A DNA stretch of 59,014 nt from Chloroflexota bacterium (lineage in GTDB: Bacteria > Chloroflexota > Anaerolineae > DTLA01). Numbering within the stretch: the stretch's first letter is position 1; each line of letters begins with the position of its first letter. A model generated the notes under the pieces. The model had not been told where the DNA came from. It did no database searches and was given only the letters and a program-made list of their open reading frames with translations. Made by a program: the position numbers and the translations under genes. Shown here piece by piece: positions 27,999 to 45,265 of the stretch. Location: contig JACIWU010000009.1 of the NCBI GenBank assembly GCA_014360805.1, positions 1 to 59,014 of the forward strand, read 5' to 3'.

Positions 27999-29708
27999 CT
28001 AGCCGAGTATCTCCACGACGCCCGTGTTGCCGTTCACGCGGATGCGGTCGCCCGTCTTGATGGTGCGCGTGCCCACAGAGGTGCCCACCACCGCCGGGAT
28101 GCCGAACTCGCGCGCCACCACCGCCGGGTGAGCCAGCACGCCGCCGGCGTCGCACACCACCGCGGCGATCTTGGTGAAGACCACGACCCACGCGGGGTTG
28201 GTCATCACGCACACCATGATCTCGCCCTTCTTGACCTTGTCAAAGTCCTCCGGGCCCATCACGACGTGCGCCGTCCCTTCGGCCACGCCAGCCGCAGCCG
28301 CCAAGCCCTTGACGACGCCCTTCGGAGCCGCCGCTTCCTTCTCGCGCTCAAACTTCTGCGGCCAGCCCCACAGGGTGTGGTACGGCTCCTCGTACATGGA
28401 CCACTGCGTAGCCGTGCCTACCCAGTCGCGCGGGCGCACCTTCCAGGCCTCTTCGCGGGCGCGGCGGTTCTGCTTGATGACCGTCTTGCCGTCAAACCCG
28501 TTCGGATTGCTCTCGGTCTTCGGGTTGGCGACGTACCAGCGCAGTTGCTCGTACTCCAGGTAGAACACATCCTCGGGATCATCCAGCAGGCCGATCTTCT
28601 TCAGGTGCCGCCCGATGGCCAGGAGCACCAGGCGCATGCGCGCATACGTGCCCTGGTCAAAGTAGAAGTGATGGTCGGGAGTCAGCGGCATCATCTTCAC
28701 CGCCAGGGCCATCGCATCCTCAACCTTCTTCCGCTGCTCTTCGGTCGCGGTGGCCGGAATCATGGCGCGCAGTTCGTCCATCGCCCTCGCCTGATCGTCC
28801 ACGATGGCCTTGTACGCCGCAGGGAAGTTGTAATCGGTTGCCAGGTAGCCGTTGATGGTCTCCACGATGGGCGTGATGTCCTCCACCCACAGTTTGTTGA
28901 TGTACTCGTGGGTGTGCAGAGGCTTCATGCCGTACTCTTTGGCATACGCGCGGACCTCATCCAGGAAGGCTTTGCCTTTGGCGGTCTTCTCCAGAAGCGG
29001 GATGATGGCCGAGGCGGTCTCGCCTTTCGTGAAGGCTGCCTTGAGGTCGGCATCCGCCTTGACCTTCTCCTTCAGCCGCCACAGGTTCTCAATGGAGTCC
29101 CAGTTCCGGTCCTTGACCGAAATGAGGATGCGCCCCATGAGCGCCGGATCCACCTGGCCGATGACTTCCCCGACCGCCGCCTGGAAGTCCAGCGACGCCT
29201 GGAACTGCGCCAGGTTCAGAATCCAGTGCAGGCGGAAGTGCCGCTCCTGGATGTCCAGGGCTTCCTCCAGGAAGATCATGAGTTCGGGGAGGGTTGCGGT
29301 CTCGGTCGGGAAGGTGTCCAGGTACTCAAAGTTGCGCTTGACCTCGGGCAGATAGCGCTCTTCCCACCACTTGGTGAACTCCTTGGCGTAGGTCGGCATA
29401 ACCATCATGTAGTAGGGCGCGATCTTGGCTGCCTCTTCGGGGTCGCGCGGCACAATGGCGCTGTACACGTACCCGTTGATCTTCTTGCCGATCCAGGCCT
29501 TGCCGAAGGGCGCGCCGAAGCGGCGGTACATGTACTCACAGGTCGGCCCCCACCACCCTCCGATGGAGAAGTACATGGGGGAGATGGGATAGGGGCAATG
29601 GGTGTCGTCGTAGAACCAGAATAGTTGCTTTTCCTCTTCGCTTGCCCACTCCACGGGGAAATCCTTGTCGCCGAAAAACGTCGCCAGCACCTTGTTAGAA
29701 TCGCTCAT
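27999..29708 (-). CDS. PEP-utilising (phosphohistidine) protein, separate from its ATP-grasp domain; phenylphosphate-synthase-like
   Basis: A 569-aa protein whose last 90 residues are the swivelling phosphohistidine domain of PEP synthase/PPDK, with GGVLAHPAVVAREFGIPAVVG-type signature (split here as GGVLAHPAVV and AREFGIPAVVG) carrying the phosphorylated His. The usual Ser before the His is Ala. The first 470 residues are helical and do not contain an N-terminal ATP-grasp domain or a C-terminal PEP-binding barrel. This architecture matches the larger subunit of phenylphosphate synthase, which works with a separate ATP-grasp subunit. ATG 29708 has AAGGAGG 7 bases upstream. First gene of operon A. 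Confidence 0.85.
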   Translation of the reverse strand: MSDSNKVLATFFGDKDFPVEWASEEEKQLFWFYDDTHCPYPISPMYFSIGGWWGPTCEYMYRRFGAPFGKAWIGKKINGYVYSAIVPRDPEEAAKIAPYYMMVMPTYAKEFTKWWEERYLPEVKRNFEYLDTFPTETATLPELMIFLEEALDIQERHFRLHWILNLAQFQASLDFQAAVGEVIGQVDPALMGRILISVKDRNWDSIENLWRLKEKVKADADLKAAFTKGETASAIIPLLEKTAKGKAFLDEVRAYAKEYGMKPLHTHEYINKLWVEDITPIVETINGYLATDYNFPAAYKAIVDDQARAMDELRAMIPATATEEQRKKVEDAMALAVKMMPLTPDHHFYFDQGTYARMRLVLLAIGRHLKKIGLLDDPEDVFYLEYEQLRWYVANPKTESNPNGFDGKTVIKQNRRAREEAWKVRPRDWVGTATQWSMYEEPYHTLWGWPQKFEREKEAAAPKGVVKGLAAAAGVAEGTAHVVMGPEDFDKVKKGEIMVCVMTNPAWVVVFTKIAAVVCDAGGVLAHPAVVAREFGIPAVVGTSVGTRTIKTGDRIRVNGNTGVVEILG

Positions 29709-29871: not shown

Positions 29872-29891
29872 ATTATCGATAATCGATTATC
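29872..29891. promoter_or_regulatory. Overlapping palindromes at the operon A start site
   Basis: GATAATCGATTATC (29878-29891) and ATTATCGATAAT (29872-29883) are perfect palindromes that share bases. They lie just downstream of the -10 of the operon A promoter, spanning the expected start site, a classic repressor position. Confidence 0.5.
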
Positions 29892-29894
29892 CAT

Positions 29895-29923
29895 AGTATA
29901 CAACAACAATCCCCATCTGTCAA
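29895..29923 (-). promoter_or_regulatory. Strong sigma70-type promoter of operon A
   Basis: Minus strand: -35 TTGACA (29923-29918), 17-bp spacer, -10 TATACT (29900-29895). The start should be near 29888 and the leader about 180 bases. The leader (29709-29887) contains no recognised riboswitch or gene. Confidence 0.75.
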
Positions 29924-29952
29924 GGTCTTTCGGAACCAGTTTTCGCAATCGC

Positions 29953-29968
29953 GGACGCCCTCGCGTCC
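29953..29968 (-). terminator. Short stem-loop after the larA-like gene
   Basis: GGACGC (29953-29958) pairs with GCGTCC (29963-29968) around a 4-base loop, 13 bp past the stop of the LarA-like gene. No T run follows, so it is more likely a stabilising 3' hairpin than an intrinsic terminator. Confidence 0.35.
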
Positions 29969-29980
29969 AGCCGACTCGTC

Positions 29981-31237: not shown

Positions 31238-32493
31238 GCGCCTTTCTCCAGATACCGCTGCGCGGCGCGCCGCAGCGCGGTAACGACCGGCAACTCCTGG
31301 CCCGACAGGAACCGCACCATGCCCCCGCCCGACGTGCAGACGTACCCCATCCTGTCCAGCACGCCGAACTTGGCGCCGGCTGCCACGCTGTCGCCCCCGC
31401 CGATGACGGAGTAGCCAGGGGCGTCGGCGATAGCATTCCACAGGCGCTCGGTGCCTTTGGCGCTCACCGGCTTCTCGTACACGCCCGCCGGCCCGTTGAC
31501 AAAGATAGTGGCCGCGCCCCGAATCACGCGGGTGTACTGGGCGATGGTCTGCTCCCCGATGTCCACCAGCAGATGGGGCGTGGGCAGATCCTTCAGTTCC
31601 AGTTCCTTGCGCCCGCCGTCGTCAATGGCAAAATCCACGGGGCTCAGGATTCTGTCGCCGAAGGTCGCCAGCAACTCCCGCGCCGCAGCGACAAACGGCG
31701 ACAGCCCCTTGTCCTCAATCAGGCGCTCGGTGGGTTCGCCCAGGCGATACCCTTTGGCCAGGGTCATGACCTCGCCCGTCAGGCCCGACGTGAGCACTAC
31801 ATCCGCCGCGCCCTCCGCGAGAACCTGCTTCATCATGCTGAATGCGTCGGCGATGCGGGCGCCGCCCAGCACGTACACGGACGGGTGCTTGGGCGTTTCT
31901 TTGACCCGCGCCAGCGCGCCGAATTCCTCTACGAACAGCCGCCCACCGGCTGCCGGCAACACCTCTGCGAACCCCACCAGCGACGGCGAATAGCGATGCG
32001 CCGCCGCGAACGCCTCGCACACGTAGTAGTCGGCCAGCGGCGCCAGTTTCCGCACCAACCACGTCTGCACCAGTTGCGCCGGCGTGAGTTTCACGAAGTT
32101 CACGAACGTGGACACCTCTTCGGTCAGGTAGCGCACGTTGTTCAGGAGCAGGATTTCGCCGTCGCGCAGGCCCTTGACCCGCTCCAACGCCGCCGGCCCC
32201 ACGATGTCGTCCATGAAGCCCACCGGCCTGCCCAGGAGCGCGGTCAGCCGCTCGCCATGTTCTTCCAACGAGATCAGGTTGTGATAGTCCTCGGTGTCGC
32301 CCTGATGGGCCAGCATCACGATGCGCGCGCCCGCGTCGGCCAGTTCGCGAATGGTGGGCACGCTCTTGCGGATACGATTGTCGTTGCTGATGCGCTTGGT
32401 CTGCGGGTCTATCGGCGAGTTGATGTCAACCCGCAAGATGACCGTCTTGCCCGCAAATCGGAAATCGTCCAGCGTCAGAATGCCCGCTTCCAC
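31234..32493 (-). CDS. pgk: Phosphoglycerate kinase, archaeal-type
   Basis: A 419-aa PGK interconverting 1,3-bisphosphoglycerate and 3-phosphoglycerate with ATP. The N-terminal domain has LRVDINSPID, RIRKSVPTIREL and LAHQGD; the last replaces the bacterial SHLGRP. CEAFAAAHRYSPSLVGF, VNGPAGVYE and the nucleotide-binding GGGDSVAAG follow. The overall pattern (HQG, SPSLVGF, TLAKGY) matches archaeal PGKs more than bacterial ones. Start is GTG 32493 with GGGGAGGG upstream. It is paired with an archaeal-type GAPDH upstream. Confidence 0.9.
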   Translation of the reverse strand: MEAGILTLDDFRFAGKTVILRVDINSPIDPQTKRISNDNRIRKSVPTIRELADAGARIVMLAHQGDTEDYHNLISLEEHGERLTALLGRPVGFMDDIVGPAALERVKGLRDGEILLLNNVRYLTEEVSTFVNFVKLTPAQLVQTWLVRKLAPLADYYVCEAFAAAHRYSPSLVGFAEVLPAAGGRLFVEEFGALARVKETPKHPSVYVLGGARIADAFSMMKQVLAEGAADVVLTSGLTGEVMTLAKGYRLGEPTERLIEDKGLSPFVAAARELLATFGDRILSPVDFAIDDGGRKELELKDLPTPHLLVDIGEQTIAQYTRVIRGAATIFVNGPAGVYEKPVSAKGTERLWNAIADAPGYSVIGGGDSVAAGAKFGVLDRMGYVCTSGGGMVRFLSGQELPVVTALRRAAQRYLEKGA

Positions 32494-32520
32494 CGTCAGC
32501 CCTCCCCAGCGAAGATGACA

Positions 32521-33549
32521 CTACCGCCGCGGCACAAGCCCCAGGTAGCGGTTGGTCAGCCCCACCGCCTCCAGCCGATCCCGCTGCATCTCCATGCACG
32601 CCCGTATCCCGTCCACCGTCTCCGGTATCGTTACCGCCTCCTGCGGAATGTTGATCGCAAACATCACATCCTCACCCGACTTCGCCACGCACTCCTCCCA
32701 CACCCCAATCTCGTACATGTCCCCTCGCTTGTTCCCCAATTCCCGCGCATACTTGAAAAACGCCGTGTTGGAGTCAAACCCGTCCTCTATCCGCACCACA
32801 CGCATCCTCGGGTGCGCGCGGAACGTCTCCAGCACCGCCTCCACGCTCACGCTCTTCTTCGGCGTCGCCACCACATTGATGATATGCCCATGCGTTACCG
32901 GCGTGTGCACCAACAGCCCCGTCGCCTTCACATGCGGCATGATGTGCATCAGGTCCACCGCCTGGTGGCTCGGCACCTTGTCCACCTTCAGCAAATCCAC
33001 CAACCCTCGGTGCGTGTCCCCAGGATCCGCCACCCGCCGTATGATCGTGATCGCTATCTTCTCCACACCCACCAGCCGATCCACCGCGTCCACCGCCCGA
33101 ATCAGCCCCGTCGTGTTGCACGACGTCAACTTCAAGAACTGCTGCCCCAACCCCTTCTCGTAGTTCGCATACCCGTGGAAGAATACATCCGCAACCTCGT
33201 CCTTCTCACCACCTTGGAAGATCGCCTTCACCCCGTGCTTCCGGTACAACTCCTTGTTCTTCGCCCCAATCCCCGCAGGCGTCGCGTCCAACACCACGTC
33301 CACCTGCTCCAGCAAATCGTCCAGCGACCCCGACACCGGTATCCCCAGCGCCTCAAACGCACCCTTCCGCCCCATGTCCACCAAATACAACTTGTACGGC
33401 ATCCCGCTCTCATGCAGCGCCCGCACCTGCAACGTCGGCGCCACATCCGCCACGCCCACCAACTCCATGTCCCCCTGCAGCGCCGCTCCATCCGCCAGCC
33501 GCGTCCCAATCGTCCCGTACCCCACCACGCATACTTTCACCTTGCTCAT
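32521..33549 (-). CDS. Type II (archaeal-type) glyceraldehyde-3-phosphate dehydrogenase
   Basis: A 342-aa phosphorylating GAPDH of the archaeal class. The Rossmann motif is VVGYGTIGTRLAD (8-20), the catalytic Cys is C144 in LTSCNTTGL, and RRVADPGDTHRG and HIMPHVKATGLLVHTPVTH are characteristic of the class II enzymes; bacterial SCTTNCLAP is absent. It should convert glyceraldehyde-3-phosphate to 1,3-bisphosphoglycerate with NAD(P). ATG 33549 has GAGGAGG close upstream. The whole gene uses G-ending codons (GGG, CGG, GCG, TTG) far more than pgk next door, a sign of separate history. Confidence 0.9.
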   Translation of the reverse strand: MSKVKVCVVGYGTIGTRLADGAALQGDMELVGVADVAPTLQVRALHESGMPYKLYLVDMGRKGAFEALGIPVSGSLDDLLEQVDVVLDATPAGIGAKNKELYRKHGVKAIFQGGEKDEVADVFFHGYANYEKGLGQQFLKLTSCNTTGLIRAVDAVDRLVGVEKIAITIIRRVADPGDTHRGLVDLLKVDKVPSHQAVDLMHIMPHVKATGLLVHTPVTHGHIINVVATPKKSVSVEAVLETFRAHPRMRVVRIEDGFDSNTAFFKYARELGNKRGDMYEIGVWEECVAKSGEDVMFAINIPQEAVTIPETVDGIRACMEMQRDRLEAVGLTNRYLGLVPRR

Positions 33550-33566
33550 CGTCGGCCTCCTCGTTA

Positions 33567-34559
33567 TCAAATCTCCCCGCGAACCAACTGCCTCACCCGG
33601 TCCGCGATCTTCTTCGCGTCCACCATCACGTAGTCCTCCATCTGCCGCGCAAACGGCGCAGGCACGCTCGGCGCGCACACCCGCACAATCGGCGCGTCCA
33701 CGTACCCATACGCCTTCTCCGCCACCTGCGCCACCACCTCCGCACCAAACCCGCACCGCTCCACCGCCTCGTGCACCACCACCAACCGCGACGTCTTCTT
33801 CACCGACCCCACAATCGTCTCCACATCCAGCGGAAACAGCGTCCGGGGATCCACCACCTCCACACTGATCCCCTCGCGCTCCAACGCCTCCGCCGCCTCC
33901 AGCGCCATCAGCACCGTCCGCGACGTCGCCACCACCGTGCAGTCCCGCCCCTCTCGCTTCACGTCCGCCACACCAAACGGTATCGTGTACTCCTCCTCCG
34001 GCACCGGCCCCTTCGTGTTGTACAGCAACTTGTGCTCTATGAAGATCACGGGGTCGTCCAACCGTATCGCCGTCTTCAGCAGCCCCTTCGCGTCATACGG
34101 CGTGGACGGCATCGCCACCAGTAGCCCTGGCGTGTGCACAAACCACGCCTCCAGGCTCTGCGCGTGCTGCGCCGCCGAAGACCGCCCCATCCCCCCCTGC
34201 GTCCGAATCACCAGCGGCACCTTCGCCTGCCCACCGGACATGTATCGTATCTTCGCCGCCTGGTTCACAATCTGATCCATCGCCATCGTGCAGAAGTCAA
34301 TGTAGAGAATCTCCGCGACGGGACGCCTGCCCATGAGCGCCGCGCCTACCGCCGTGCCGATGAACCCCTGCTCGCTGATAGGCGTCTGAATGACTCGGTC
34401 CAGGCCAAACTCGGTGGACAGCCCCGCGGTAACTTTGTAGGAGCCGCCGTGGGGGTCGGCAATATCTTCACCGATGAGGAAGATGGTCTCATCTCGGAGC
34501 ATTTCCTCGCGCATGGCTTCTTTCAGCGCTTCTCTGTAGGTGATTTCGCGGACAGCCAT
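33567..34559 (-). CDS. 2-oxoacid dehydrogenase E1 component, beta subunit (PDH/acetoin dehydrogenase type)
   Basis: Beta subunit (330 aa) of the heterotetrameric E1 of a pyruvate-, acetoin- or branched-chain 2-oxoacid dehydrogenase. Conserved parts are YREALKEAMREEM, GEDIADPHGGSYKVTAGL, TPISEQGFIGTAVGAAL, and EVVDPRTLFPLD near the C-terminal domain. It pairs with the alpha subunit upstream. ATG 34559 follows GGAAGG. From the stop to about 34270 the gene uses G-ending codons heavily, while the 5' third does not, so composition changes inside the gene. Confidence 0.92.
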   Translation of the reverse strand: MAVREITYREALKEAMREEMLRDETIFLIGEDIADPHGGSYKVTAGLSTEFGLDRVIQTPISEQGFIGTAVGAALMGRRPVAEILYIDFCTMAMDQIVNQAAKIRYMSGGQAKVPLVIRTQGGMGRSSAAQHAQSLEAWFVHTPGLLVAMPSTPYDAKGLLKTAIRLDDPVIFIEHKLLYNTKGPVPEEEYTIPFGVADVKREGRDCTVVATSRTVLMALEAAEALEREGISVEVVDPRTLFPLDVETIVGSVKKTSRLVVVHEAVERCGFGAEVVAQVAEKAYGYVDAPIVRVCAPSVPAPFARQMEDYVMVDAKKIADRVRQLVRGEI

Positions 34560-34572
34560 CGTGCCTTCCTTC

Positions 34573-35601
34573 CTATCTTGGATTGCCCAGGTAGTCAAAG
34601 TGGACGTACAACTCGTCCAGCGCCGTCTCCGGCGCCGCCAGCGGACTCGCCTTCGCGTACTCCACGCCCGCCTCTATCTCCGCCGCCACCTCCGCTCCCA
34701 TCGCCTCGTCTTCCGCCTCCGTCAGATACCCCCACGCCAGCAACTGCCCCCGCAACTTCACAATCGCGTCCCGCTTCCGCCAAGCCTCCCGCTCCTCCGC
34801 CGGCATGTACAGCGCAGGGTCCCCCACATAATGCCCCAAGAACCGATACGTCTTCGCCTCTATGAACCCAGGCCCGCCGCCGCGCCGTGCCCGCTCCACC
34901 GCTTTCCGCGCCGCGCGGTGCACCGCGATCACATCCATCCCGTCCACGCACTCCCCAGGGATGTGGTACGTCCCCACTCGCGCCACCAAATCGCACTTGT
35001 ACGCCGTCTTCTCCCACGGCTGCGATAACCCGTACAGGTTGTTCTGGCACACAAACACCACAGGCACCTGCCACAGCGACGCCAGGTTCAGCGCCTCGTG
35101 GAACCCACCTTCCGCCGTCGCCCCGTCCCCAAAGAAGCACACCACCACCTCGTCCCCGCCGCGCTGCTTGATCCCCATCCCAATCCCCACAGACGTCGGC
35201 AGGCTCCCGCTCACAATCCCCGTCGCCCCAATGATCCCCTGGCTGAAGTCCGCAATGTGCATGGAGCCGCCCTTGCCCTTGCAGTACCCCGTCGCCCGCC
35301 CGTACAACTCCGCAAACATCCGCTTCACCTCGCACCCCTTCGCAATCACGTCCCCATGCCCACGGTGCGTGCTCGTGATGTAGTCCCGCGGCCCCAGCGC
35401 CCAGCACACCCCAACCGGCACCGCCTCCTGCCCCTGCGACAGGTGCAAGAACCCCGCGATCTCCCCCGCCTCAAACCGCTCCTTCGCCTTGTCCTCAAAC
35501 GCACGGATCAGCCGCATCCGCCGGTACATCCCCAACAACTGCTCCCGCGTCAGGTCCTCCGGCGGAGCCTCGGTCGTTGCCTCTGTCTTCTTCGCGCTCA
35601 T
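34573..35601 (-). CDS. 2-oxoacid dehydrogenase E1 component, alpha subunit
   Basis: TPP-binding E1-alpha subunit of 342 aa. Hallmarks are MYRRMRLIRAFEDKA, GFLHLSQGQEAV, STHRGHGDVIAKG, YCKGKGGSMHIAD, and the TPP motif starting GDGATAEGGFHEALN and ending in QNN. Phosphorylation-loop region TYRFLGHYVGD is intact. Together with E1-beta and E2 it forms most of a pyruvate or acetoin dehydrogenase complex; sequence does not settle the substrate. It is 13 bp after E2 and 13 bp before E1-beta. G-ending codons dominate throughout. Confidence 0.93.
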   Translation of the reverse strand: MSAKKTEATTEAPPEDLTREQLLGMYRRMRLIRAFEDKAKERFEAGEIAGFLHLSQGQEAVPVGVCWALGPRDYITSTHRGHGDVIAKGCEVKRMFAELYGRATGYCKGKGGSMHIADFSQGIIGATGIVSGSLPTSVGIGMGIKQRGGDEVVVCFFGDGATAEGGFHEALNLASLWQVPVVFVCQNNLYGLSQPWEKTAYKCDLVARVGTYHIPGECVDGMDVIAVHRAARKAVERARRGGGPGFIEAKTYRFLGHYVGDPALYMPAEEREAWRKRDAIVKLRGQLLAWGYLTEAEDEAMGAEVAAEIEAGVEYAKASPLAAPETALDELYVHFDYLGNPR

Positions 35602-35614
35602 TCTACCCTCCGCG

Positions 35615-36916
35615 TTATGTCAATATCAGCACCGGCTCTTCCATCAGCCGCGCGATCGTCTCCAAGAACCTCGCCGCTGGCGCGCCGTCTATCACCCGAT
35701 GGTCAAACGCCAGGCTCAACACCATCATCGGCCTCACTGCCATCTCATCCCCTACCACCACCGCCTTCTTCACCATCCGCCCAACACCCAATATGCAGCA
35801 CTCCGGCAGGTTGATCACCGGCGTGAACCCCTCCACGCCGTACATCCCCAGGTTCGTGATCGTGAACGTCCCGCCTGTCAGGTCGTCCGGCCCAATCCGC
35901 CCGCTCCGCGCCGCCTCCACCAGCCGCGCCCGCTCTCGCGCCAACTCCGCCAGGCTCATCCGGTCGGCGCCGTGAATCACCGGCACCAGCAGCCCCCGCT
36001 CTGTGTCCACCGCCAACCCAATGTTCACATCCCCCAGCCGCTCAATCACCCCATCCCCAAGCCGCGCGTTCGCCTCCGGATGCCGCCGCAACGCCTCCGC
36101 GCACACCCGCACCAGGATGTCGTTGTACGTGATCTCTATCCCCTCATCCTTGAGGCGGTCGCGCAACGCGATCATCTTGCTCGCGTCCACCTCCCGGAAC
36201 AGCGTTACCCGCGCCGTCTCCCGCGCGCTCTCCGCCATCCGCCGCGACACAACCCCACGGACGCCCGTCAGCGGTATCCGCTCCACCACGCCCGACGGCG
36301 CCGCAGGAGCCGCCTCCACTGCCCCGCGCCCGCGGATCACCGCCGCCGCAGCGCGCAACACGTCCTCCTCCATCACGCGCCCGCCAGGGCCCGTCCCCGC
36401 AATCCCGGCCATCTCCAGCCCCAGCACCGCCGCCAACCTCTCCGCCGCCGGCGTCGCCTTCACAGCCTCTGCCGCCGGAGCCGCCTTCGCCGCCACCGCG
36501 CGCGCCACATCCGCCGCCACCACGCGCCCCCCAGGGCCGCTCCCCGCGATGCTGGCAATGTCAAGTCCGGCTTTCCGCGCTTCCACCCGCGCCTTCCACG
36601 ACGCCTCCCCCCGCACCGCTTCCGCCGCGGGTTCGGCCTCGCGCCTCGGCTCCGGCGGCGCAGCAGCCACCGCCGCGCCCTCGCCCTCCAGCACCGCCAC
36701 CGGCGCGCCCACCGGCGCCTCCTCCCCCTCCGCCACCAGAATCCGCGCCACCTTCCCGCTCTGCTGCGCCTCCACCGTTACGATGGCCTTGTCCGTCTCC
36801 ACCTCAAAGATCGCCTGGCCGCGGGCGATGGTGTCCCCAACGCCCACCAGCCACTTCACCACCTTCCCACGCTCCATCGTCAGCCCCAACTGGGGCATCG
36901 TGATCTCCATCGCCAT
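35615..36916 (-). CDS. Dihydrolipoamide acyltransferase (E2) with two E3/E1-binding domains
   Basis: A 433-aa E2. Residues 1-80 are one lipoyl domain with the lipoylated Lys in VETDKAIVT (K43). After an Ala/Glu/Pro linker come two peripheral-subunit-binding domains, about 107-141 (IAGSGPGGRVVAADV) and about 155-190 (IAGTGPGGRVMEEDV); a single one is normal. The acyltransferase domain (about 210-433) has the catalytic HRVIDG. Transfers the acyl group from lipoate to CoA. No E3 gene is nearby. ATG 36916 has GGAGG upstream. The lipoyl-coding part has ordinary codon use; the rest is G-ending-rich. Confidence 0.93.
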   Translation of the reverse strand: MAMEITMPQLGLTMERGKVVKWLVGVGDTIARGQAIFEVETDKAIVTVEAQQSGKVARILVAEGEEAPVGAPVAVLEGEGAAVAAAPPEPRREAEPAAEAVRGEASWKARVEARKAGLDIASIAGSGPGGRVVAADVARAVAAKAAPAAEAVKATPAAERLAAVLGLEMAGIAGTGPGGRVMEEDVLRAAAAVIRGRGAVEAAPAAPSGVVERIPLTGVRGVVSRRMAESARETARVTLFREVDASKMIALRDRLKDEGIEITYNDILVRVCAEALRRHPEANARLGDGVIERLGDVNIGLAVDTERGLLVPVIHGADRMSLAELARERARLVEAARSGRIGPDDLTGGTFTITNLGMYGVEGFTPVINLPECCILGVGRMVKKAVVVGDEMAVRPMMVLSLAFDHRVIDGAPAARFLETIARLMEEPVLILT

Positions 36917-36950
36917 GACCACCTCCAGCAGCATGAAATCCGATGGGCGA

Positions 36951-37439
36951 CTACAGGCGGGAAATCGCCCGTTCCCACTCCTGTTCGTCGCCCAGGGGAG
37001 CAAGCGCGCGCACCGCGAACTCTATCTGGCGCATGCAGACATCTCTCCAGATGCCGCTCTCAATGAACCGCGCGTGTTGGGTCGGCTCATGAATGTCCAG
37101 GCCCAGCAGGTCGCGGCAATGTGTGGCACCATAAGCGGCACAAAACCGGTCTATGAACCCGTTGATAATGGCTCTGCTAACTCTTTTGGCCTCTTTGTGG
37201 TCGGGGATGCGCGAGGCGGCCAGGCGGCCCACGGCAATCGCAGCGCCCGAAATCGCGCCGCAAACCCATCCGCGCCACGCCACCCCGCCGTTCAGCGCCA
37301 TGCACAGCGCCGCATCGTCCTCGCCGCCCAGCCCGAAGACCTCAAGGAGCGCCACGAGGGTTGTCTCGGCGCAGCCGTACAGGTTGTCGTCGCGCAGGAA
37401 CAGTTCACGCGCCCTTGCGAGAGCATCCGCCTGCGTCAT
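36951..37439 (-). CDS. C_GCAxxG_C_C family redox-associated protein
   Basis: A 162-aa cysteine-motif protein of the family TIGR01909/C_GCAxxG_C_C. The pattern is visible as NLYGCAETTL, then GWVCGAISGAAIAVG, then the paired Cys of FCAAYGATHCRDLLG. Its biochemical role is unknown; members occur near oxidoreductases in anaerobes and may bind a metal or FeS centre. The start overlaps the GntR gene stop, and it precedes the E2 gene by 34 bp, so it is part of operon B. Confidence 0.8.
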   Translation of the reverse strand: MTQADALARARELFLRDDNLYGCAETTLVALLEVFGLGGEDDAALCMALNGGVAWRGWVCGAISGAAIAVGRLAASRIPDHKEAKRVSRAIINGFIDRFCAAYGATHCRDLLGLDIHEPTQHARFIESGIWRDVCMRQIEFAVRALAPLGDEQEWERAISRL

Positions 37440-38125
37440 CCCAGACCATTCTCCTGGCCGAAGTTCTCGGGGGGTTTGCCCAAGTCCTCAATGTGGCGGC
37501 GCATCGCCGTCATGGCCTTCTGGGGATTGCGCGTCTGGAGCGCCTTCAGCAGGTCCTCGTGGCGCTTGGCCAATTCCTCCAGATTGTACTCGGACACGCG
37601 CGTGGTTACGATGGTCCAGTAGCCGAAGCGCAGCGTTTGCCAAAGGTTGTACAACAAGCGGTTGCCCGACAACTTCATGATGGCCTCGTGGAAGATATTG
37701 TCCAGGCGCACCATACGGTTCCCGTCGCGCGCCTTGCCCGCTTCCACCATCTGCTCCAGGATGTCCTGAAGCGCGGCCAGGTCCTCATCGGTGGCACGCG
37801 GGGCCGCCAGGCGGGCCGCAAGGGATTCCAGCGCCGCGCGCACCGTGTACACTTCGTACAATTCCTCAGCCGTGAACGACCGCACGAACGTGCCCTTATA
37901 CGGCTCGGACTCCAAGAAGCCCATGAGCACTAGGTCGCGAATGGCCTCGCGCACCGGCGCTTGGCTCACCCCTAACTGCCGCGCCAGGGCGCTCTCTATG
38001 ATGCGCTGGCCGGGCTTCATCTCCCCGCTCATGATGGCTTTGATGATGAACTCGCGCACCCGGTCGCTGAGCGCCGTCTTGGGGAACGTCTCCCCTTCGG
38101 CCGCTCCGATGGCTCTCATTCCCAC
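37436..38125 (-). CDS. GntR-family transcriptional regulator (FadR/FCD subgroup)
   Basis: A 229-aa regulator. The N-terminal winged helix has LSDRVREFIIKAIMSGEMKPGQRI and SQAPVREAIRDLVLMGFLE, with the recognition helix about 52-64. The C-terminal FCD domain (about 85-215) contains DNIFHEAIMKLSGN, whose His and Asp usually bind a metal and a carboxylic acid ligand such as an organic or sugar acid. It is the only regulator within operon B and a candidate for control of operons A, B and perhaps C. It follows the HprK-like gene by 32 bp. Confidence 0.92.
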   Translation of the reverse strand: MGMRAIGAAEGETFPKTALSDRVREFIIKAIMSGEMKPGQRIIESALARQLGVSQAPVREAIRDLVLMGFLESEPYKGTFVRSFTAEELYEVYTVRAALESLAARLAAPRATDEDLAALQDILEQMVEAGKARDGNRMVRLDNIFHEAIMKLSGNRLLYNLWQTLRFGYWTIVTTRVSEYNLEELAKRHEDLLKALQTRNPQKAMTAMRRHIEDLGKPPENFGQENGLG

Positions 38126-38157
38126 CTCCGTTTCTGTAGGCGGTGCTGCCCCGATGC

Positions 38158-39039
38158 TTACAGCAGTTTCTCCACCTCGTCCAGGATCACCTGCGGGTTC
38201 CGCCCCCGAATCAGGTAGTAGGGACGGACCGCGAAGCGGTGCACGAAGTCGGCGCGGCGGGCCCTCCGCTCGTCCGTATCCACAATGGGCATCGGCAGCC
38301 CAGGCGACAGCAGTTGATTGAGGCCAAAGTAGTTCATCACCGAGTGATACGTCTGATACTCCCGCTCAAACGGGATCATCTCCACCACTGCCGTGTCAAA
38401 ATTGCCGTCAATGGAGGGCAGAATCACGATGTCCACGTTGCTGGGCGCGTCATAGTTCACAAACTCGGGCGTCTTGTCAAAGAACTTCGCCACGCCCTGA
38501 TCCTGGTTGGGCAAGTCGGCGCGCTCGGTTCCCTTGGCGCGCTGCCTCAGGAAGACCGACTTGGAACCCATCACCGCCCAGCCGCGCTCGTCCACCACCG
38601 TCGTCTCCGTGGACACGACCAGCCCGCCCCTGCGGCAGCCCTCAATCTGGGACATGGTTTTGCCGTGATTGGATTCGCCGCCCAGGAACATGATGGTGCG
38701 ATCCATGTACCGCACCGCCGACGCGTGGAACGGATGCAGGCCGTGCTCCTCCATGCGAAACGCCAGCATGGTTACCAGCACTTTCTGCACCTCGCCCTGG
38801 AACCACTCGCCGTCCAGAATCAAAATGCCATCCTCGTACCGAATGTCTTTCCGCGCCGCGTCCTGTCGCCAGATGATGTCCGGCCTAGGACGGGTAACCG
38901 TGTCCTCAATGCGAACGCTGGCCAGGCGGTAGTCCAAGAACGACATCTCGTCCAGCACGTGCTCCACCGGGCGGCTTCCGTACACATCCACCCGCAATCG
39001 GGCCTCGCCCGACGACATCTCTTCCGAGAGTTGTAGCAT
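38158..39039 (-). CDS. HprK-like P-loop protein (HPr kinase/phosphorylase-related), unknown target
   Basis: A 293-aa protein. A P-loop, GGESNHGKT (120-128), sits in the context AVRYMDRTIMFLGGES, followed by GGLVVSTETTVVDERG; this resembles the HPr kinase core, where the P-loop is followed by a strand with the 'DDxV' acid (here TETTVVD). No HprK N-terminal domain or HPr gene is seen. ATG 39039 is chosen because GGAGG lies 5 bases upstream. It is 14 bp after the ATP-grasp gene and probably co-translated, which suggests it phosphorylates or dephosphorylates something in the same phosphotransfer chain. The function is not established. Confidence 0.65.
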   Translation of the reverse strand: MLQLSEEMSSGEARLRVDVYGSRPVEHVLDEMSFLDYRLASVRIEDTVTRPRPDIIWRQDAARKDIRYEDGILILDGEWFQGEVQKVLVTMLAFRMEEHGLHPFHASAVRYMDRTIMFLGGESNHGKTMSQIEGCRRGGLVVSTETTVVDERGWAVMGSKSVFLRQRAKGTERADLPNQDQGVAKFFDKTPEFVNYDAPSNVDIVILPSIDGNFDTAVVEMIPFEREYQTYHSVMNYFGLNQLLSPGLPMPIVDTDERRARRADFVHRFAVRPYYLIRGRNPQVILDEVEKLL

Positions 39040-39053
39040 CTCTCCCTCCACGT

Positions 39054-40004
39054 TTACAGGCATGTGATGGGGCGGCTCTGCAACAGATAGATTGTGCCGC
39101 CCTCCGACGCCCACTCAATATCCTGTGGGCACCCGAAGTGTCGCTCCACTTTGTTGCCGAGGTCCACCAGTTGGCGCAACTCGTCCAGCGTCAGCACCTT
39201 GGCCGCTGCCTTGTCCGGCGGAACCTGCAACGTGATCACCCCGCAATCGCCGTCGCGACAGACCATGATCTGCTTCTCGGGCACGAACTCGTACACGATC
39301 TCGTAGGTCTCGCGGTCCACCTTGTAGTGATCGGGCGTGATGGTGCCGGAAACGATCCCCTCGCCCAGCCCCCACACCGCCTCAATGGTCATCTGGAAGT
39401 GATTGCGCATCACGGGGTCAACCGTGAAGGTAACGCCCGACTTCTCCGAATTGATCATCTTCTGCACCACCACGGCCATAGACACCTCGGAGTGCTCAAA
39501 GCCCTTCTGGTGCCGATAGAAGATCGCTTGAGACGTGAAAAGCGAGGACCAGCACCCCCGCACCGCGCGCAGGAGTTGGTCCTCGCCAACCACGTTTAGA
39601 AAAGTCTCCTGTTGCCCCGCGAAACTGGCCCCCGCCAGGTCCTCGGCCGTCGCGCTAGAGCGCACCGCTACCGCCGCATCCGGGCCCAGGGCGCGGTAGT
39701 GGGCCACGATCTCGTCCCGCAGGTCATCCGGAATCGGGATGTCGGCAAACAACGCCCGCACCCGATGCTCTACTTCCTGAAGGTGCCCGCTTTCCAGATA
39801 ATCCAGGCCGCTGAGAATGCGGGCGATTTGCTCGCCCAGGCCCAGCGCCTCGGCAACCCGCCTGTACGCCGAGGATAGGATGACGAACCCCGGCGGGATG
39901 GGTAGCCCCGCCTGCGCCATGTCGCCCAGATTCGCGCCTTTACCTCCCGCCAGCGCCACATCGTTCCGCGAAATCTCCGAAAACCACCGACACATTATAC
40001 CCAT
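39054..40004 (-). CDS. Stand-alone PEP-synthase/PPDK ATP-grasp domain protein
   Basis: A 316-aa protein equal to the N-terminal nucleotide-binding third of PEP synthase. It shows GGKGANLGDMAQAGLPIPPGF, the VRSSATAEDLAGASFAGQQETFLN block (split motif VRSSATAEDL), VVVQKMINSEKSGVTFTVDP, and the closing YLLQSRPI. The phosphohistidine and PEP-binding domains are missing because the gene simply ends there, with a proper stop. It is the size of the small subunit of phenylphosphate synthase. The natural partner is the phosphohistidine protein at 27999-29708. GGAGG lies 10 bases before the start; an in-frame ATG three codons on is possible. Confidence 0.86.
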   Translation of the reverse strand: MGIMCRWFSEISRNDVALAGGKGANLGDMAQAGLPIPPGFVILSSAYRRVAEALGLGEQIARILSGLDYLESGHLQEVEHRVRALFADIPIPDDLRDEIVAHYRALGPDAAVAVRSSATAEDLAGASFAGQQETFLNVVGEDQLLRAVRGCWSSLFTSQAIFYRHQKGFEHSEVSMAVVVQKMINSEKSGVTFTVDPVMRNHFQMTIEAVWGLGEGIVSGTITPDHYKVDRETYEIVYEFVPEKQIMVCRDGDCGVITLQVPPDKAAAKVLTLDELRQLVDLGNKVERHFGCPQDIEWASEGGTIYLLQSRPITCL

Positions 40005-40019
40005 GGATCCGACGCCTCC

Positions 40020-40808
40020 TCATTGAGATGCCGTAATGCCGCCATCGGCGAAGATGATCTGCCCCGTGATGAAGTCCGACGCAGGCGCCGACAGGTACAC
40101 CGCCAACGCCGCAATGTCCTTCGGCTCCGCAATCCGCCCCAACGGTATCCGCGCCACCAACGGATTGTAGAACTCCGGATCCGCCAACATGTGCGCCACC
40201 AACTCCGTCCGCACAAACGTCGGCGCAATCCCGTTCACCGTGATCCCGTACTTCGCCCACTCCGTCGCCAAGTGCTTGATCATCATGTTCATCCCGCCCT
40301 TGCTCGCGCAGTACGACACATACCCACGCTTCGGCAACCCCAACATGCTCCGCACCGAACTGATGTGAATGTGCTTCCCGCCGCCGCGCTCCACCTGCTC
40401 CCGCGCCACCGCCTGCGATAAGAAGAACGCCGCCTTCAGGTTCAAGTCCAGCGCGTAGTCCCAGTCCTCCTCCGTGTACTCCAGCGCAGGCGCCTCCCGC
40501 AGTATCCCCACGCTGTTCACCACCACGTCTATCTTCCCAAACCGCTTCGCCACCTCGGGCACAAACGCCCGCACTTCGGCCACATTCAGCACGTCCAGCG
40601 CCGCGCCCCACGCCTTGCCCCCTTGCTCGTTGATGCGCGCCGCCAGCGCCTCGGCCTTGGACCCGGTGCGCCCGCACACCACCACCGTCGCCCCGAAGGC
40701 CGCCAGCGCCTCGCAGATGGCCGCGCCGATCCCGCCCGCGCCCCCTGCCACCAGCGCCACCTTCCCGCTCAAATCGTACAGTTTGCGATAGTCGTCAAGT
40801 GAGGACAT
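40020..40808 (-). CDS. SDR-family oxidoreductase (gluconate/sugar dehydrogenase-like)
   Basis: A 262-aa classical short-chain dehydrogenase. The cofactor motif is VAGGAGGIGAAI, NSVGIL stands for NNAG, and the catalytic Tyr/Lys are in YVSYCASKG; the end VYLSAPASDFITGQIIFADGG is standard. It is closest in style to gluconate-5-dehydrogenase-like enzymes, so a sugar, sugar acid or sugar alcohol is a reasonable substrate. First gene of operon B, with AAGGAGATG upstream. The 3' two thirds (40023 to about 40560) uses G-ending codons heavily and the 5' third does not. Confidence 0.9.
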   Translation of the reverse strand: MSSLDDYRKLYDLSGKVALVAGGAGGIGAAICEALAAFGATVVVCGRTGSKAEALAARINEQGGKAWGAALDVLNVAEVRAFVPEVAKRFGKIDVVVNSVGILREAPALEYTEEDWDYALDLNLKAAFFLSQAVAREQVERGGGKHIHISSVRSMLGLPKRGYVSYCASKGGMNMMIKHLATEWAKYGITVNGIAPTFVRTELVAHMLADPEFYNPLVARIPLGRIAEPKDIAALAVYLSAPASDFITGQIIFADGGITASQ

Positions 40809-40993: not shown

Positions 40994-41115
40994 ATTATCG
41001 GTCAGTAAAAATCATTTTCATAGAACAAAAACCCTAGCGCGCCGCGTGAGGGCCTTTCCCTTATGGCGACGCTTTCGTTACATCTCGTCCAGCCCGTTTG
41101 TAGCGGAGGTTGCTT

Positions 41116-42243
41116 ATGCCGGTCTATTCATTTACACCCGCGGACGTGGAACCCCTCTTGGAAGGCTTGGCCATCCTGGGCACGGGCGGCGGAGGCTCCC
41201 CCGAATGGGGCAAGGCTATCATGCAGAATGACTTCGCCCACAATCGGCACCCCCAGATTATCCCCCTGGAAGAAATCGCCGACGACGCAACCGTGGTCTC
41301 GGGCGGCATCATGGGGTCGGTCAAGAAACTGGAAGAGTTTGGCACCGACGCCATCATGGCCCACTGGGAGGAGCGATTTGAACTGGAAGCCGTAACCCGC
41401 GTGATGGAGGGCATCCTGGGCCGCAAGATAGACCACATGGTTCCGTTTGAGGTGGGCGGGCTGAACACGCCGGTGGTGCTGTCGTTGGGGGCGCGCTTGG
41501 GCATCCCCATCATTGACGGCGACGCCCTGGGCCGGTCCGCGCCGGAGACCCAGATGACCAGTTTCATCGGCCATGGCGTCTCGCTTACGCCGATGCCGCT
41601 CATAGACTACTACGGCAACGTGGTGATTGTCCAGAGCGCGGTCAGTCCCACGTACCCCGATCAACTGGGCCGATGGGTTGTGAGCAATGGCGGCGGGCTG
41701 GGCGCCAACAACCACTACCCGATGACCGGGCGCCAGGCGAAGCAGGCGGTGGTCCCCGGAACCATCAGCAAAGCGCTGCACCTGGGCCGCGCCGTGCAAG
41801 CCGCGCGGCGACTGGGTGGCGACCCGATTTCGGTGATCGCCGCCGAGATGAAGGGAAAACGCCTCTTCACCGGTCGGATTCTCAGGCTGGACGAAGAGGA
41901 GAGACTGGGCTTCTATTTCACGACGGCCACCATTCAGGGTGAAGGGGCGCACCGAGGCCAGACGGCGCGGCTCGTGATCAAGAACGAGACCATGCTCCTG
42001 GAGATTGACGGCAAGGTGCGGGCCATGTTCCCCGACCTGGTGCTGCTCCTTGACCCTACCACGGGCCGTGGGCTGATGAGCGTGGAACTGAAGGCAGGGA
42101 CGGAGGTGGCGCTGGTGGGTGCGCCTTGCCATGAGCGCCTGCGCGAAGCCGTGCGCACGGACGTCGGAGCACAAGCCTTCAGCCCCGAACGGTACGGTCG
42201 CCCTGACTTGACCTATCGTCCCTTGGAGGAGTTGGCGGGATGA
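41116..42243 (+). CDS. DUF917-family protein (hydantoinase/oxoprolinase-associated)
   Basis: A 375-aa DUF917 protein. It begins FTPADVEPLLEGLAILGTGGGGSPEWG, with the Gly-rich motif typical of the family, followed by VVSGGIMGSVKK and GRSAPETQMTSFIGHG. DUF917 proteins are related to accessory parts of hydantoinases and acetone-carboxylase-type enzymes, but no catalytic partner (HyuA/HyuB) is next to it. The start ATG 41116 has GGAGG 6 bases upstream. Its stop overlaps the next start (ATGA). It is the first gene of operon C, placed ahead of a URO-D-family protein. Confidence 0.84.
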   Translation: MPVYSFTPADVEPLLEGLAILGTGGGGSPEWGKAIMQNDFAHNRHPQIIPLEEIADDATVVSGGIMGSVKKLEEFGTDAIMAHWEERFELEAVTRVMEGILGRKIDHMVPFEVGGLNTPVVLSLGARLGIPIIDGDALGRSAPETQMTSFIGHGVSLTPMPLIDYYGNVVIVQSAVSPTYPDQLGRWVVSNGGGLGANNHYPMTGRQAKQAVVPGTISKALHLGRAVQAARRLGGDPISVIAAEMKGKRLFTGRILRLDEEERLGFYFTTATIQGEGAHRGQTARLVIKNETMLLEIDGKVRAMFPDLVLLLDPTTGRGLMSVELKAGTEVALVGAPCHERLREAVRTDVGAQAFSPERYGRPDLTYRPLEELAG

Positions 42244-43388
42244 ACAGCCGGGAACGTGTCCTTGCGGCGCTGGCGCACCGCGAACCCGACCGCGTGCCGG
42301 TGGATTTCGGCAGCACGTGGATCACCACCATCACGATCCCGAAGTACGAAGAACTCAAGCGGCATCTGGGCATAGATAGCCCCACGGTCGTCATGGAGCG
42401 GTCCCAGCAGGTGTGCATGGTGGACGAACGCATTCTGGACATCTTCCATGTGGACACCGTTGGCGTTTTCTACGGCCCGCCCGAGTTGGAACGCAATCAG
42501 TTCGTGGAACTGGGCGAAAACGTTTACCGCGATTCTTGGGGCATCACCTGGCACAAGCCGCCGACATCCCACTACTTTGACATGCTCAAGCCCCCGTTGG
42601 GCGGCGAGATCACGATCCACGACGTGCTGAATCATCCATGGCCCGACCCGCACGACCCGGGCTACACCCGCGGACTTCGCGAGCGCGTCCGCAAACAGCG
42701 CGAGTCCACGGATCGGGCGTTGGTGCTCAACCTGTCCATCTGGGTGCTGCAGTGTAGCCAATTCGTGCGCGGGTTTGAGGATTGGTTTGTGGACCTGATC
42801 GCCCAACCTCGGTTGATGGAGGCGATTTTTGACGCCATCACCGAGTCGCTGCTCGGCGTGGTGGAGGATGTTCTGGACGAGGTGGGCGATTTGGTGGATG
42901 TGGTCTCGGTGTCCGACGACATGGGGCATCAGGACAGGACCTGCATCCGGCCCGAACTGTACCGCAAACTCATCAAGCCCCGACATGCGCGGCTGATGGA
43001 GGCCATCAAGTCGCGGACGCGGGCGCCCGTCATGTGGCACACCTGCGGGTCGGTGTACGACCTGCTGGACGACCTGATTGACATGGGCGTGGACGCCCTG
43101 AATCCGGTGCAGACCGACGCCGCCAAGATGGAGCCCGAACGGCTCAAGCGGGATTACGGCGACCGCCTGACGTTCTGGGGCGGCATAGATGCGATTCGCG
43201 TCCTGCCCTTCGGCACGCCGCAGGATGTGGAAGACGAAGTGAAGCGCAAGATTCGGGTGTTCGCGCCCGGCGGGGGCTACATCCTCAATTCCGTTCACAA
43301 CATTCAGCCCAACGTGCCCCTGGAAAACCTGTTTGCCATGTTTGAGGCCGCGCAGAAGCACGGTCGCTACCCTATCGCGGAGGGATGA
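42240..43388 (+). CDS. Uroporphyrinogen decarboxylase-family (URO-D) protein, likely methyltransferase-like, copy 1
   Basis: A 382-aa TIM-barrel protein of the URO-D superfamily. Motifs include REPDRVPVDFGSTW near the start, DDMGHQDRTCIRPELYRKLIKP (about 225-246), the metal-type motif WHTCGSV (around 260) and VDALNPVQ. The HxC motif occurs in the methylcobamide:CoM methyltransferases of this superfamily but not in haem-biosynthetic HemE, so a cobalamin- or metal-dependent transfer or demethylation is more likely than decarboxylation. No corrinoid protein is nearby. Overlaps its neighbours by 4 bases at both ends. Confidence 0.84.
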   Translation: MNSRERVLAALAHREPDRVPVDFGSTWITTITIPKYEELKRHLGIDSPTVVMERSQQVCMVDERILDIFHVDTVGVFYGPPELERNQFVELGENVYRDSWGITWHKPPTSHYFDMLKPPLGGEITIHDVLNHPWPDPHDPGYTRGLRERVRKQRESTDRALVLNLSIWVLQCSQFVRGFEDWFVDLIAQPRLMEAIFDAITESLLGVVEDVLDEVGDLVDVVSVSDDMGHQDRTCIRPELYRKLIKPRHARLMEAIKSRTRAPVMWHTCGSVYDLLDDLIDMGVDALNPVQTDAAKMEPERLKRDYGDRLTFWGGIDAIRVLPFGTPQDVEDEVKRKIRVFAPGGGYILNSVHNIQPNVPLENLFAMFEAAQKHGRYPIAEG

Positions 43389-43393
43389 CTCGC

Positions 43394-44239
43394 ATGCAGA
43401 GCAAATCTGCGGAGAACGAACGGTACCATATCCGGGCGGTGCTCCGCGCGCTGGATGTCCTGGAGGCCTTCTCTACGGACGAGCCCGCGTTGTCGCTGAT
43501 GGAGGTGAGCGACCGAATCGGGCTGAACCCAAGTACCACGTTCCGGCTCCTGGCGACGCTGGAGAGTCGGGGCTACGTGGAGCAGGATGAGGCCACGGGG
43601 CGGTATCGGGTCGGCGTCAGCATCCTGAAGCCCACCAGCACGTTCTTGGCTCACCTCAACGTCCGCGAGCGCGTGTACCCGTTCCTGGTGGAATTGCGCG
43701 ACGCCAGCCGCGAGACGGTCCACCTGACAGTGTTGGATCCGCGCATGATGGAGGTCATCTATCTGGAGAAACTAGAGGGACTTCAGCCCATCGGCCTCAT
43801 GAGTTCGCGGGTAGGCGGGAGGTCGCCGGCCTACTGCACGGCCGTTGGCAAGGCTCTGCTGGCCTATCAGGATCCGGGCATCGTCCGCGGGTTCTTCTCC
43901 AAGAACGGCATGAGGCGCTTCACCGCCAACACCATCACGACGGTGGACGCGCTGATGGAGGAATTGGAGCGCGTGCGGGAGCGCGGGTATGCGCTGGACA
44001 ACGCCGAGCACGAGGAAGATGTGATGTGCGTCGCCATCCCACTTTGGAATCATCTGGGCACGGTGGTGGCTGCCATCAGCGTCTCGGGGCCGGTGGAGCG
44101 GATAACCCGTGCCATTCGCGAGGATGGGCTGGTGGAGCGGGTCCTGTCGGTGGGCAAGCGGGTCAGTCGGCAACTGGGAGCCTTGCCGTCGGGCGAAGCA
44201 ATGCCCGGCAGGCAGGGCGTGCCCTACAGGGCAGTGTGA
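43394..44239 (+). CDS. IclR-family transcriptional regulator
   Basis: A 281-aa regulator. The N-terminal helix-turn-helix has AVLRALDVLEAFSTDEPALSLMEVSDRIGLNPSTTFRLL; the C-terminal effector domain has the usual VGGRSPAYCTAVGKALLAY block and ending VAAISVSGPVERIT. IclR proteins commonly control uptake and breakdown of sugar acids such as KDG, which fits the KDG kinase and KDPG aldolase genes directly downstream. ATG 43394 is preferred: GGAGG is 10 bases upstream, whereas the ATG at 43385 is too close to it. It probably autoregulates the operon C promoter. Confidence 0.92.
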   Translation: MQSKSAENERYHIRAVLRALDVLEAFSTDEPALSLMEVSDRIGLNPSTTFRLLATLESRGYVEQDEATGRYRVGVSILKPTSTFLAHLNVRERVYPFLVELRDASRETVHLTVLDPRMMEVIYLEKLEGLQPIGLMSSRVGGRSPAYCTAVGKALLAYQDPGIVRGFFSKNGMRRFTANTITTVDALMEELERVRERGYALDNAEHEEDVMCVAIPLWNHLGTVVAAISVSGPVERITRAIREDGLVERVLSVGKRVSRQLGALPSGEAMPGRQGVPYRAV

Positions 44240-44270
44240 GCAACCATTCTTCAGCGGAGGCATCGTTGCC

Positions 44271-45254
44271 ATGGACGTCGTTACCTTTGGAGAGACCATG
44301 ATTCGTTTGGCGGCGCCGGGGTTCCAGCGCCTGGAGCAGGTTACTTCGCTGGCCGTAACGGTGGGCGGCGCAGAACTCAACGTGGCCACAGGCGTAGCGC
44401 GGCTCGGATTGAAGAGCGCGTGGGTCAGCCGCCTGCCCGACAACCCCCTGGGGCGCATGGCCCGCAACAAGGCCAACGAGTTCGGCGTGGACACGTCGCA
44501 CATCGTCTGGACTTCTGAGGACCGCATGGGGCTGTACTTTGTGGAATACGGGGCCGCGCCCAGGGCCAGTTCGGTGCTGTACGACCGCGAAGGCTCGGCC
44601 ATAAGCCGCATCCGGCCGGGCGAGGTGAAGTGGGACGAAGTGCTGCGCGGCGCCCACCTGTTCCACACCACCGGCATCACGCCCGCCCTGAGCGATTCGG
44701 CAGCCGCGGTGGTGGCCGAGGCGATGGAAGCGGCAAAGCGGCATGGCTGTCTGGTGAGTTACGACCTCAACTACCGCGCCAAACTGTGGAGCACGCAGAA
44801 GGCGCGGCAGGTGCAGGAGCCACTCATGCAGATGGTGGACATCCTCTCCACAACCGAGGAAGACACCGAGAAAGTCTTCGGCGTCAAGGCCGATTCCTAT
44901 GTAGATGTGGCGCGCAAACTGATTGATCGCTTCGGGTTCAAGGTGGTTACCATCACCCTGCGGGAAACGCCCTCGGTGTGGCGCAACACCTGGACGGCCA
45001 TTGCGGTGGACCGCGAGGGCAACGTGTACGACGACCGGGTGTACGACGTGGAGGTGGTGGACCGGGTGGGCGGCGGCGACGCCTATACCGCGGGCTTCTT
45101 GTATGGGTATCTGACGCAGGGCGTGGCGGCAGGCGTGCTGTACGGCAATGCCTTCTCGGTGTTGAAACAAACGTCGTGGGGAGATTTCAACTGGGCCACA
45201 CTGGCCGAGGTGGAGGCGCTTCTGAAAGGCGCGGGGCTGCGCATCGTTCGCTAG
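44271..45254 (+). CDS. kdgK: 2-keto-3-deoxygluconate kinase (PfkB-family sugar kinase)
   Basis: A 327-aa ribokinase-family kinase. It begins MDVVTFGETMIRLAAPG, like KdgK, and has the N-terminal GGAELNVATGVARLG and the C-terminal catalytic DRVGGGDAYTAGF with the base Asp. It should phosphorylate 2-keto-3-deoxygluconate to KDPG. The next gene is the matching aldolase, which supports the substrate. Fructokinase or tagatose kinase activity cannot be excluded from sequence alone. ATG 44271 has GGAGG 10 bases upstream. Confidence 0.88.
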   Translation: MDVVTFGETMIRLAAPGFQRLEQVTSLAVTVGGAELNVATGVARLGLKSAWVSRLPDNPLGRMARNKANEFGVDTSHIVWTSEDRMGLYFVEYGAAPRASSVLYDREGSAISRIRPGEVKWDEVLRGAHLFHTTGITPALSDSAAAVVAEAMEAAKRHGCLVSYDLNYRAKLWSTQKARQVQEPLMQMVDILSTTEEDTEKVFGVKADSYVDVARKLIDRFGFKVVTITLRETPSVWRNTWTAIAVDREGNVYDDRVYDVEVVDRVGGGDAYTAGFLYGYLTQGVAAGVLYGNAFSVLKQTSWGDFNWATLAEVEALLKGAGLRIVR

Positions 45255-45265
45255 GAGGTTCTCGC

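Follow-up and report, generated by a model that had tools for sequence, protein, structure and literature searches.

A PEPCK-like P-loop protein encoded beside a predicted two-component, HpeHI-type dikinase in a Chloroflexota bacterium

A protein of 293 amino acids, encoded on the minus strand at 38158..39039 of a contig of a Chloroflexota bacterium (JACIWU010000009.1; the whole stretch analysed, 59,014 nucleotides, is called the window), was found to belong to the PEPCK/HprK P-loop superfamily without being an HPr kinase. Its nearest relatives, both by sequence and by predicted structure, are the ATP-dependent PEP carboxykinases (PEPCKs). This placement is well supported, as is the association of the gene with an HpeH-type dikinase. 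As to function, the reading that we tentatively prefer is that of a catalytically competent, metal-dependent ATP/ADP phosphotransferase, which would be a third, accessory component of the dikinase module and would act on a phosphorylated pathway intermediate.

The gene extends from an ATG at 39039 to a stop codon at 38158-38160, and is present as a single copy in the source genome (96.15% complete). It is a genuine gene and no chance ORF, as judged from 96% identity of the protein to copies in two congeneric genomes, 51-70% identity over almost the full length at other loci (Chloroflexota, Spirochaetota, Bacillota), and a P-loop, GGExNHGK[ST], shared by all 34 homologues aligned. Conservation is strong and distribution patchy. 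Among 60 relatives searched, the family was confined to the source genome and two others of the same genus; three further rows at E ~5e-4 were short matches inside ORFs that, at 544-645 aa, are about as long as a PEPCK. When 84,980 species genomes were scanned with short peptide patterns, 15 loci emerged, distributed over Chloroflexota (Anaerolineae), Spirochaetota, Oscillospiraceae and Lachnospiraceae, and among 400 Chloroflexota genomes searched with a profile the gene was detected in 20, 17 of these from one family (f64). No tblastn match was obtained in plasmid records. The alignment comprised 34 homologues, locus L014 (start cut, near-identical to L013) and locus L008 (near copy of L007) being omitted, and in the tree a Bacillota/Spirochaetota side was separated, with support, from a Chloroflexota side. 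Gene content of the loci was read from tblastn, as the first gene caller had chosen many antisense ORFs in GC-rich loci.

The initial annotation had seen in this protein an HprK-like catalytic core. A fold common to HprK and PEPCK was indeed recovered, but PEPCK proved closer by Pfam, by profile comparison and by Foldseek. The sole Pfam match was to PEPCK_ATP, over residues 66-128 (E=1e-5, 24.9 bits, under the 26.5 cut-off), and neither Hpr_kinase_C nor the HprK N-terminal domain was matched at E<=1, the lack of the latter having been recognised from the start. When 14 members were compared to Pfam at E<=1, PEPCK_ATP was matched by 8 and Hpr_kinase_C by 4, with a best E of 0.1. In NCBIfam, PEPCK models alone were hit, with scores far under their cut-offs, and a search of PDB sequences with the family profile ranked PEPCKs first (best E=0.0074). 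Comparison of the 34-member alignment by hhalign gave a probability of 79% against PEPCKs versus 8.6% against HprKs (single-comparison E of 1.6e-5 and 0.0039), with reference sets taken mostly from genomes bearing the PEPCK-like gene.

Structure prediction likewise found similarity to the HprK/PEPCK P-loop fold. With an AlphaFold2 model (pLDDT 82.4, pTM 0.82, loop 166-176 poor), the top 35 Foldseek rows were all PEPCKs, the best at E=6.6e-8, followed by HprK 1knx at 2.6e-4. VIA-align superposed the model on Thermus PEPCK over 242 residues spanning residues 1-293 (Z 11.3, rmsd 4.8), and on HprK 1ko7 over 122 residues spanning residues 100-293 (Z 10.2, rmsd 3.4), so that the HprK catalytic-core fold is present in the predicted model. 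The two Z values are near-equal, and the separation suggested by the model rests on coverage.

The earlier statement that HPr and a PTS are lacking was borne out in the source genome (96% complete), where HPr (PF00381) had 0 matches at E<=1 and where no enzyme I candidate (PF00391 and PF02896 searches), no HprK above cut-off and no other PEPCK_ATP match were found. PF00391 matched twice, in a PPDK-sized ORF of 953 aa and in the HpeH-like gene described below; PF02896 matched solely the 953-aa ORF. Of 18 genomes that bear the PEPCK-like gene, 10 also have a canonical HprK (10 of the 11 reached via Spirochaetota/Bacillota loci, 0 of the 7 Chloroflexota), which means that the PEPCK-like protein is no HprK stand-in. 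Since PEPCK_ATP was also found above cut-off in 11 of these 18 genomes, the family is distinct from both enzymes. It scores under both Pfam cut-offs, and the earlier suggestion of a new subfamily was right.

Inspection of the active site gave a mixed picture. The Walker A motif GGESNHGKT is present as first read, at residues 120-128 (38656..38682, minus strand). Upstream lie a W79-x2-G82-x3-K86 motif (38782..38805, minus) and H105 (38725..38727, minus); K86 and H105 align with the Lys and His that ligate Mn2+ in PEPCK. Invariant across the 34 homologues were W79, G82, K86, H105, GGExNHGK127, R137, E145, R167, G170-T-E-R173 and D175. The distances K86 to H105 (19 residues) and H105 to K127 (22) were also constant in 34/34, and are those of PEPCK, 7 of 9 PEPCKs having Lys-His 19, His-Walker Lys 22-23 and Walker Lys-acid 15; the two others are L082, a diverged PEPCK whose spacing differs, and L076, whose Lys-His value of 6 is an artefact, the pattern having caught a KK further along. 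A substrate-side metal site of PEPCK type is thus predicted from sequence. No W-x2-G-x3-K motif was found upstream of the His in 9 HprKs. Behind the P-loop the spacing becomes that of HprK: K127 and E145 are 18 residues apart in 34/34, the distance from Walker Lys to second Asp in 9/9 HprKs. The Asp-Asp pair of HprK is itself absent, [SA][ST]E standing instead in 34/34 at HprK spacing; in the window protein this is STET (residues 143-146, 38602..38613, minus), where E145 occupies the position of the second Asp. The family also has Glu at the metal-site Asp position of PEPCK, and in the YGGExKK motif of PEPCK the Tyr is replaced by F/E/P/A and the first Lys by Q/N. With these two residues replaced, the protein is unlikely to act as a PEP carboxykinase proper; in E. 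coli PEPCK the substrate Arg residues are R65 and R333. Length, Pfam cut-off and substrate residues together rule out an ordinary PEPCK. The protein thus has a PEPCK-type front followed by an HprK-type rear, and the family, which mixes the spacings of both enzymes and falls short of both Pfam cut-offs, is intermediate between the two.

The position of the gene, between an ATP-grasp protein and a GntR regulator, had been read correctly. It starts 14 bp after a gene for a stand-alone ATP-grasp protein (39054..40004, minus, 316 aa; PPDK_N, PF01326, E=7e-102) and ends 32 bp before one for an FCD-domain GntR regulator (37436..38125, minus), which overlaps by 4 bp the gene of a C_GCAxxG_C_C family protein (36951..37439, minus). 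Upstream, a short-chain dehydrogenase (SDR) gene (40020..40808, minus) ends 15 bp ahead of the ATP-grasp gene. What had been missed is the role of the ATP-grasp neighbour: by sequence it is the HpeI-type half of a small-molecule dikinase with two components, of HpeHI/CreHI/PpsAB type. The HpeH half, a relative of rifampin phosphotransferase, is encoded ~8.5 kb further down the same operon-like minus-strand run, at 27999..29708. It carries the swivel domain of PEP-utilising enzymes and matches RIF_Ptrans_rph (NCBIfam, E=3.4e-32) and PRK08296 (E=5.5e-54); its predicted model (pLDDT 72.4, N-terminus poor) superposes on rifampin phosphotransferase 5fbt over 469 residues (Z 24.4, rmsd 3.8; Foldseek E=3e-16). 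The swivel His lies in the motif GGVLAHPAVVAR, of GGxxxH type, and GGxxxH was found in every listed HpeH-like copy except two cut copies that end short of it. As described in PMC12167813, HpeI binds ATP and HpeH bears the catalytic His, a division common to HpeHI, CreHI and PpsAB.

Known dikinases are regulated at a Thr that precedes the swivel His by two residues. In HpeH-like sequences, the comparison including clusters without the PEPCK-like gene, this position was L/T/V/A/N and not conserved, so that regulation through it is disfavoured. In its description of HpeH itself, PMC12167813 likewise reports that the conserved dikinase regulatory Ser/Thr is lacking.

These genes belong to a long, mostly same-strand run (22047-40808, minus) that contains SDR, HpeI-like, PEPCK-like, GntR and C_GCAxxG genes, PDH-type E2/E1a/E1b, an archaeal-type GAPDH-II, PGK, a LarAH6-type malate racemase homologue and the HpeH-like gene; after the latter come what are presumably, by sequence, AOR, UPF0261 and a class II aldolase. 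GAPDH-II and PGK beside a 2-oxoacid dehydrogenase make an unusual set. On the plus strand, a divergent cluster (41110-45922) includes an S-Me-THD-like protein and genes that we take, on similar grounds, for a UROD-like methyltransferase, an IclR regulator, a PfkB kinase and a KDPG-type aldolase; it looks like a cluster for sugar-acid catabolism. Most of the remaining genes in the minus-strand run, and in related clusters, encode metabolic enzymes, in keeping with a metabolic phosphotransferase. A GntR match was found near the PEPCK-like gene in many relatives, and XDH-type, SMP30, ADH, cupin and MBL neighbours varied between phyla.

The association with HpeH was examined in the 400 Chloroflexota genomes, a score of at least 450 bits being taken for HpeH-like and of at least 280 bits for stand-alone HpeI-like proteins. 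All 20 genomes with the PEPCK-like gene fell among the 37 bearing an HpeH-like gene (hypergeometric 6e-24, a value that ignores relatedness). An HpeH-like gene was also present in 14 of 15 further gene-bearing genomes, the exception being G450, with the G002 copy in two 277-aa pieces at contig starts. Overall, the count is 34 of 35. Of the 19 Chloroflexota stretches added, 18 have the HpeH-like gene within ~3.1 kb; the exception, L051, is a contig of 6.2 kb, and the HpeH-like gene of that genome (G383) is on another contig. By comparison, a stand-alone HpeI-like gene was found in only 14 of 34 genomes. The PEPCK-like gene was missing from 17 of the 37 HpeH-bearing Chloroflexota genomes, and clusters L089 and L090 have almost the same gene set without it. 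It is therefore dispensable, and this agrees more with an accessory or regulatory function than with an obligatory one. On the HpeH tree, no fewer than 2 changes are needed to explain its presence, which is split between two groups, one with the window, Anaerolineae, Spirochaetota and Bacillota, the other with f64-type Chloroflexota. A mirror-tree analysis of 15 loci gave r=0.918 for PEPCK-like versus HpeH; as every cluster pair reached at least 0.757, this indicates co-inheritance of the cluster rather than a specific contact.

Several observations were made on related clusters. In f64 Chloroflexota, a second protein is encoded near the PEPCK-like cluster (L039 ~14096-15406, and similar places in L041, L047 and L052-L054). 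It combines divergent PPDK_N and swivel parts in open frames of ~520-800 aa, and is possibly the ATP-grasp supplier there. HpeH-type clusters without the PEPCK-like gene (L089-L098), many with HpeI, GntR, XDH-type subunits and UPF0261, form a wider family of dikinase-linked catabolic clusters. L012 has fragments of an HD-protein and XdhB at 6067-7068, where in L010, a relative, full genes flank an HpeI-like gene; this is either a deletion or an assembly fault. Finally, the motif SESSYARQGIKT is repeated in frame translation at L009 9688-11134, adjoining the cluster, and is possibly part of a CRISPR or other repeat array.

That distant bacteria share the PEPCK-like gene and a two-part dikinase suggests a third, unstudied part of the same phosphorylation chemistry. 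By homology to HpeHI, the HpeI-like subunit would load ATP, and the swivel His of the HpeH-like subunit would take the beta-phosphate and deliver it to a hydroxyl or enol of the growth substrate. The PEPCK-like protein would then carry out a PEPCK-type phosphoryl transfer between ADP/ATP and that phosphorylated intermediate or a following one. A bolder version, which we consider unlikely, is a three-component route repeating on a non-pyruvate substrate the sequence from PEP synthase to PEPCK: HpeH/HpeI would make an enol- or aryl-phosphate, on which the PEPCK-like protein would perform a PEPCK-type reaction (the phosphoryl going back to ADP, perhaps coupled to carboxylation or decarboxylation), or else it would swap phosphate directly with HpeH where HpeI is lacking. 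If true, a small-molecule dikinase pathway would have a dedicated enzyme from the PEPCK superfamily.

The chief rival to a metabolic phosphotransferase is a regulatory protein kinase/phosphorylase with an HprK-like role, which would phosphorylate HpeH, HpeI or the adjacent FCD-GntR protein according to energy state. We regard it as somewhat unlikely. It is kept alive by the optional gene, frequently near a GntR gene, and by the HprK-like rear, with its constant Walker Lys-acid spacing of 18 and the alignment of HprK folds to residues 100-293. However, the regulatory Thr of dikinases is unconserved in HpeH, which speaks against the known type of regulation by protein kinase, HPr is absent from the source genome, and the protein retains a PEPCK-type Lys-His site whose W-x2-G-x3-K element no HprK examined possesses. 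A diverged but otherwise ordinary HPr kinase/phosphorylase is hardly credible: for it there are the shared superfamily and the weak Hpr_kinase_C matches in 4 of 14 members; against it, the missing HPr, canonical HprK alongside in 10 of 18 genomes, the lead of PEPCK in sequence, profile and structure, and the unmatched HprK N-terminal domain. An ordinary HprK is ruled out, Hpr_kinase_C, N-terminal domain, DD pair and HPr partner all being lacking.

Two other possibilities seem to us improbable. The PEPCK-like protein might directly charge the swivel domain of HpeH, or the substrate of HpeH, replacing the ATP-grasp subunit or working beside it, as the near-constant presence of HpeH compared to the rarity of stand-alone HpeI could indicate. 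Many HpeI-less Chloroflexota genomes nevertheless have another PPDK_N and swivel protein near the cluster, incomplete genomes may account for the HpeI absence counts, and we know of no PEPCK-fold kinase that makes phospho-His on a dikinase, which also counts against the idea. The other, to which we give as little credence, is a nucleotide-binding sensor or scaffold without catalysis. The unusual Walker A (GGExNHGK), the Glu where HprK has its DD pair and the optional gene would agree with it, but Walker Lys and Ser/Thr, His, Lys and Glu are all kept in 34/34.

PEPCK and HprK are a textbook example of one P-loop core serving both an enzyme and a protein kinase. With ATP-dependent PEPCK (PckA, PF01293), the PEPCK-like protein shares its predicted fold, the W/Y-x2-G-x3-K and H motifs at equal spacing and the P-loop; it differs in its length (293 aa versus ~530), its score below the Pfam cut-off, the replaced Tyr and first Lys of YGGExKK, the metal-site Glu for Asp and the Walker Lys-acid distance of 18 instead of 15. 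With HprK (PF07475) it has in common the C-terminal half of the fold, the Walker Lys-acid distance of 18 and a helix ending in R-R-G ahead of the acid motif; it differs by the absence of a Pfam match and of the N-terminal domain, by a genome without HPr and by the PEPCK-type Lys upstream of the His. Having the metal-site spacing of one and the rear spacing of the other, and being tied to recently recognised small-molecule dikinases, the family offers a defined system for how one became the other. A P-loop regulator of phospho-His dikinases exists in the PEP synthase/PPDK regulatory protein (PDRP, DUF299); it is of another family, as the PEPCK-like protein has no Pfam match to it, and the Thr that it targets is unconserved in the HpeH-like subunit. 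Archaeal SerK has a ParB-like fold without P-loop. Judged by title or abstract, no paper was found to connect two-component dikinases with a protein like PEPCK or HprK. The family draws attention to a hitherto unstudied step in the catabolic gene clusters of Chloroflexota, Spirochaetota and Bacillota, most of which are represented by MAGs alone. The closest parallel for the neighbourhood is with HpeHI, CreHI, PpsAB (phenylphosphate synthase) and rifampin phosphotransferase: as in these systems described in PMC12167813, the neighbours are a PPDK_N subunit and an RPH-type substrate/swivel subunit with catalytic His. HpeHI, CreHI and PpsAB are presented there as two components, with no PEPCK-like partner mentioned in the passages that describe them, whereas here a third, PEPCK-like gene is present.
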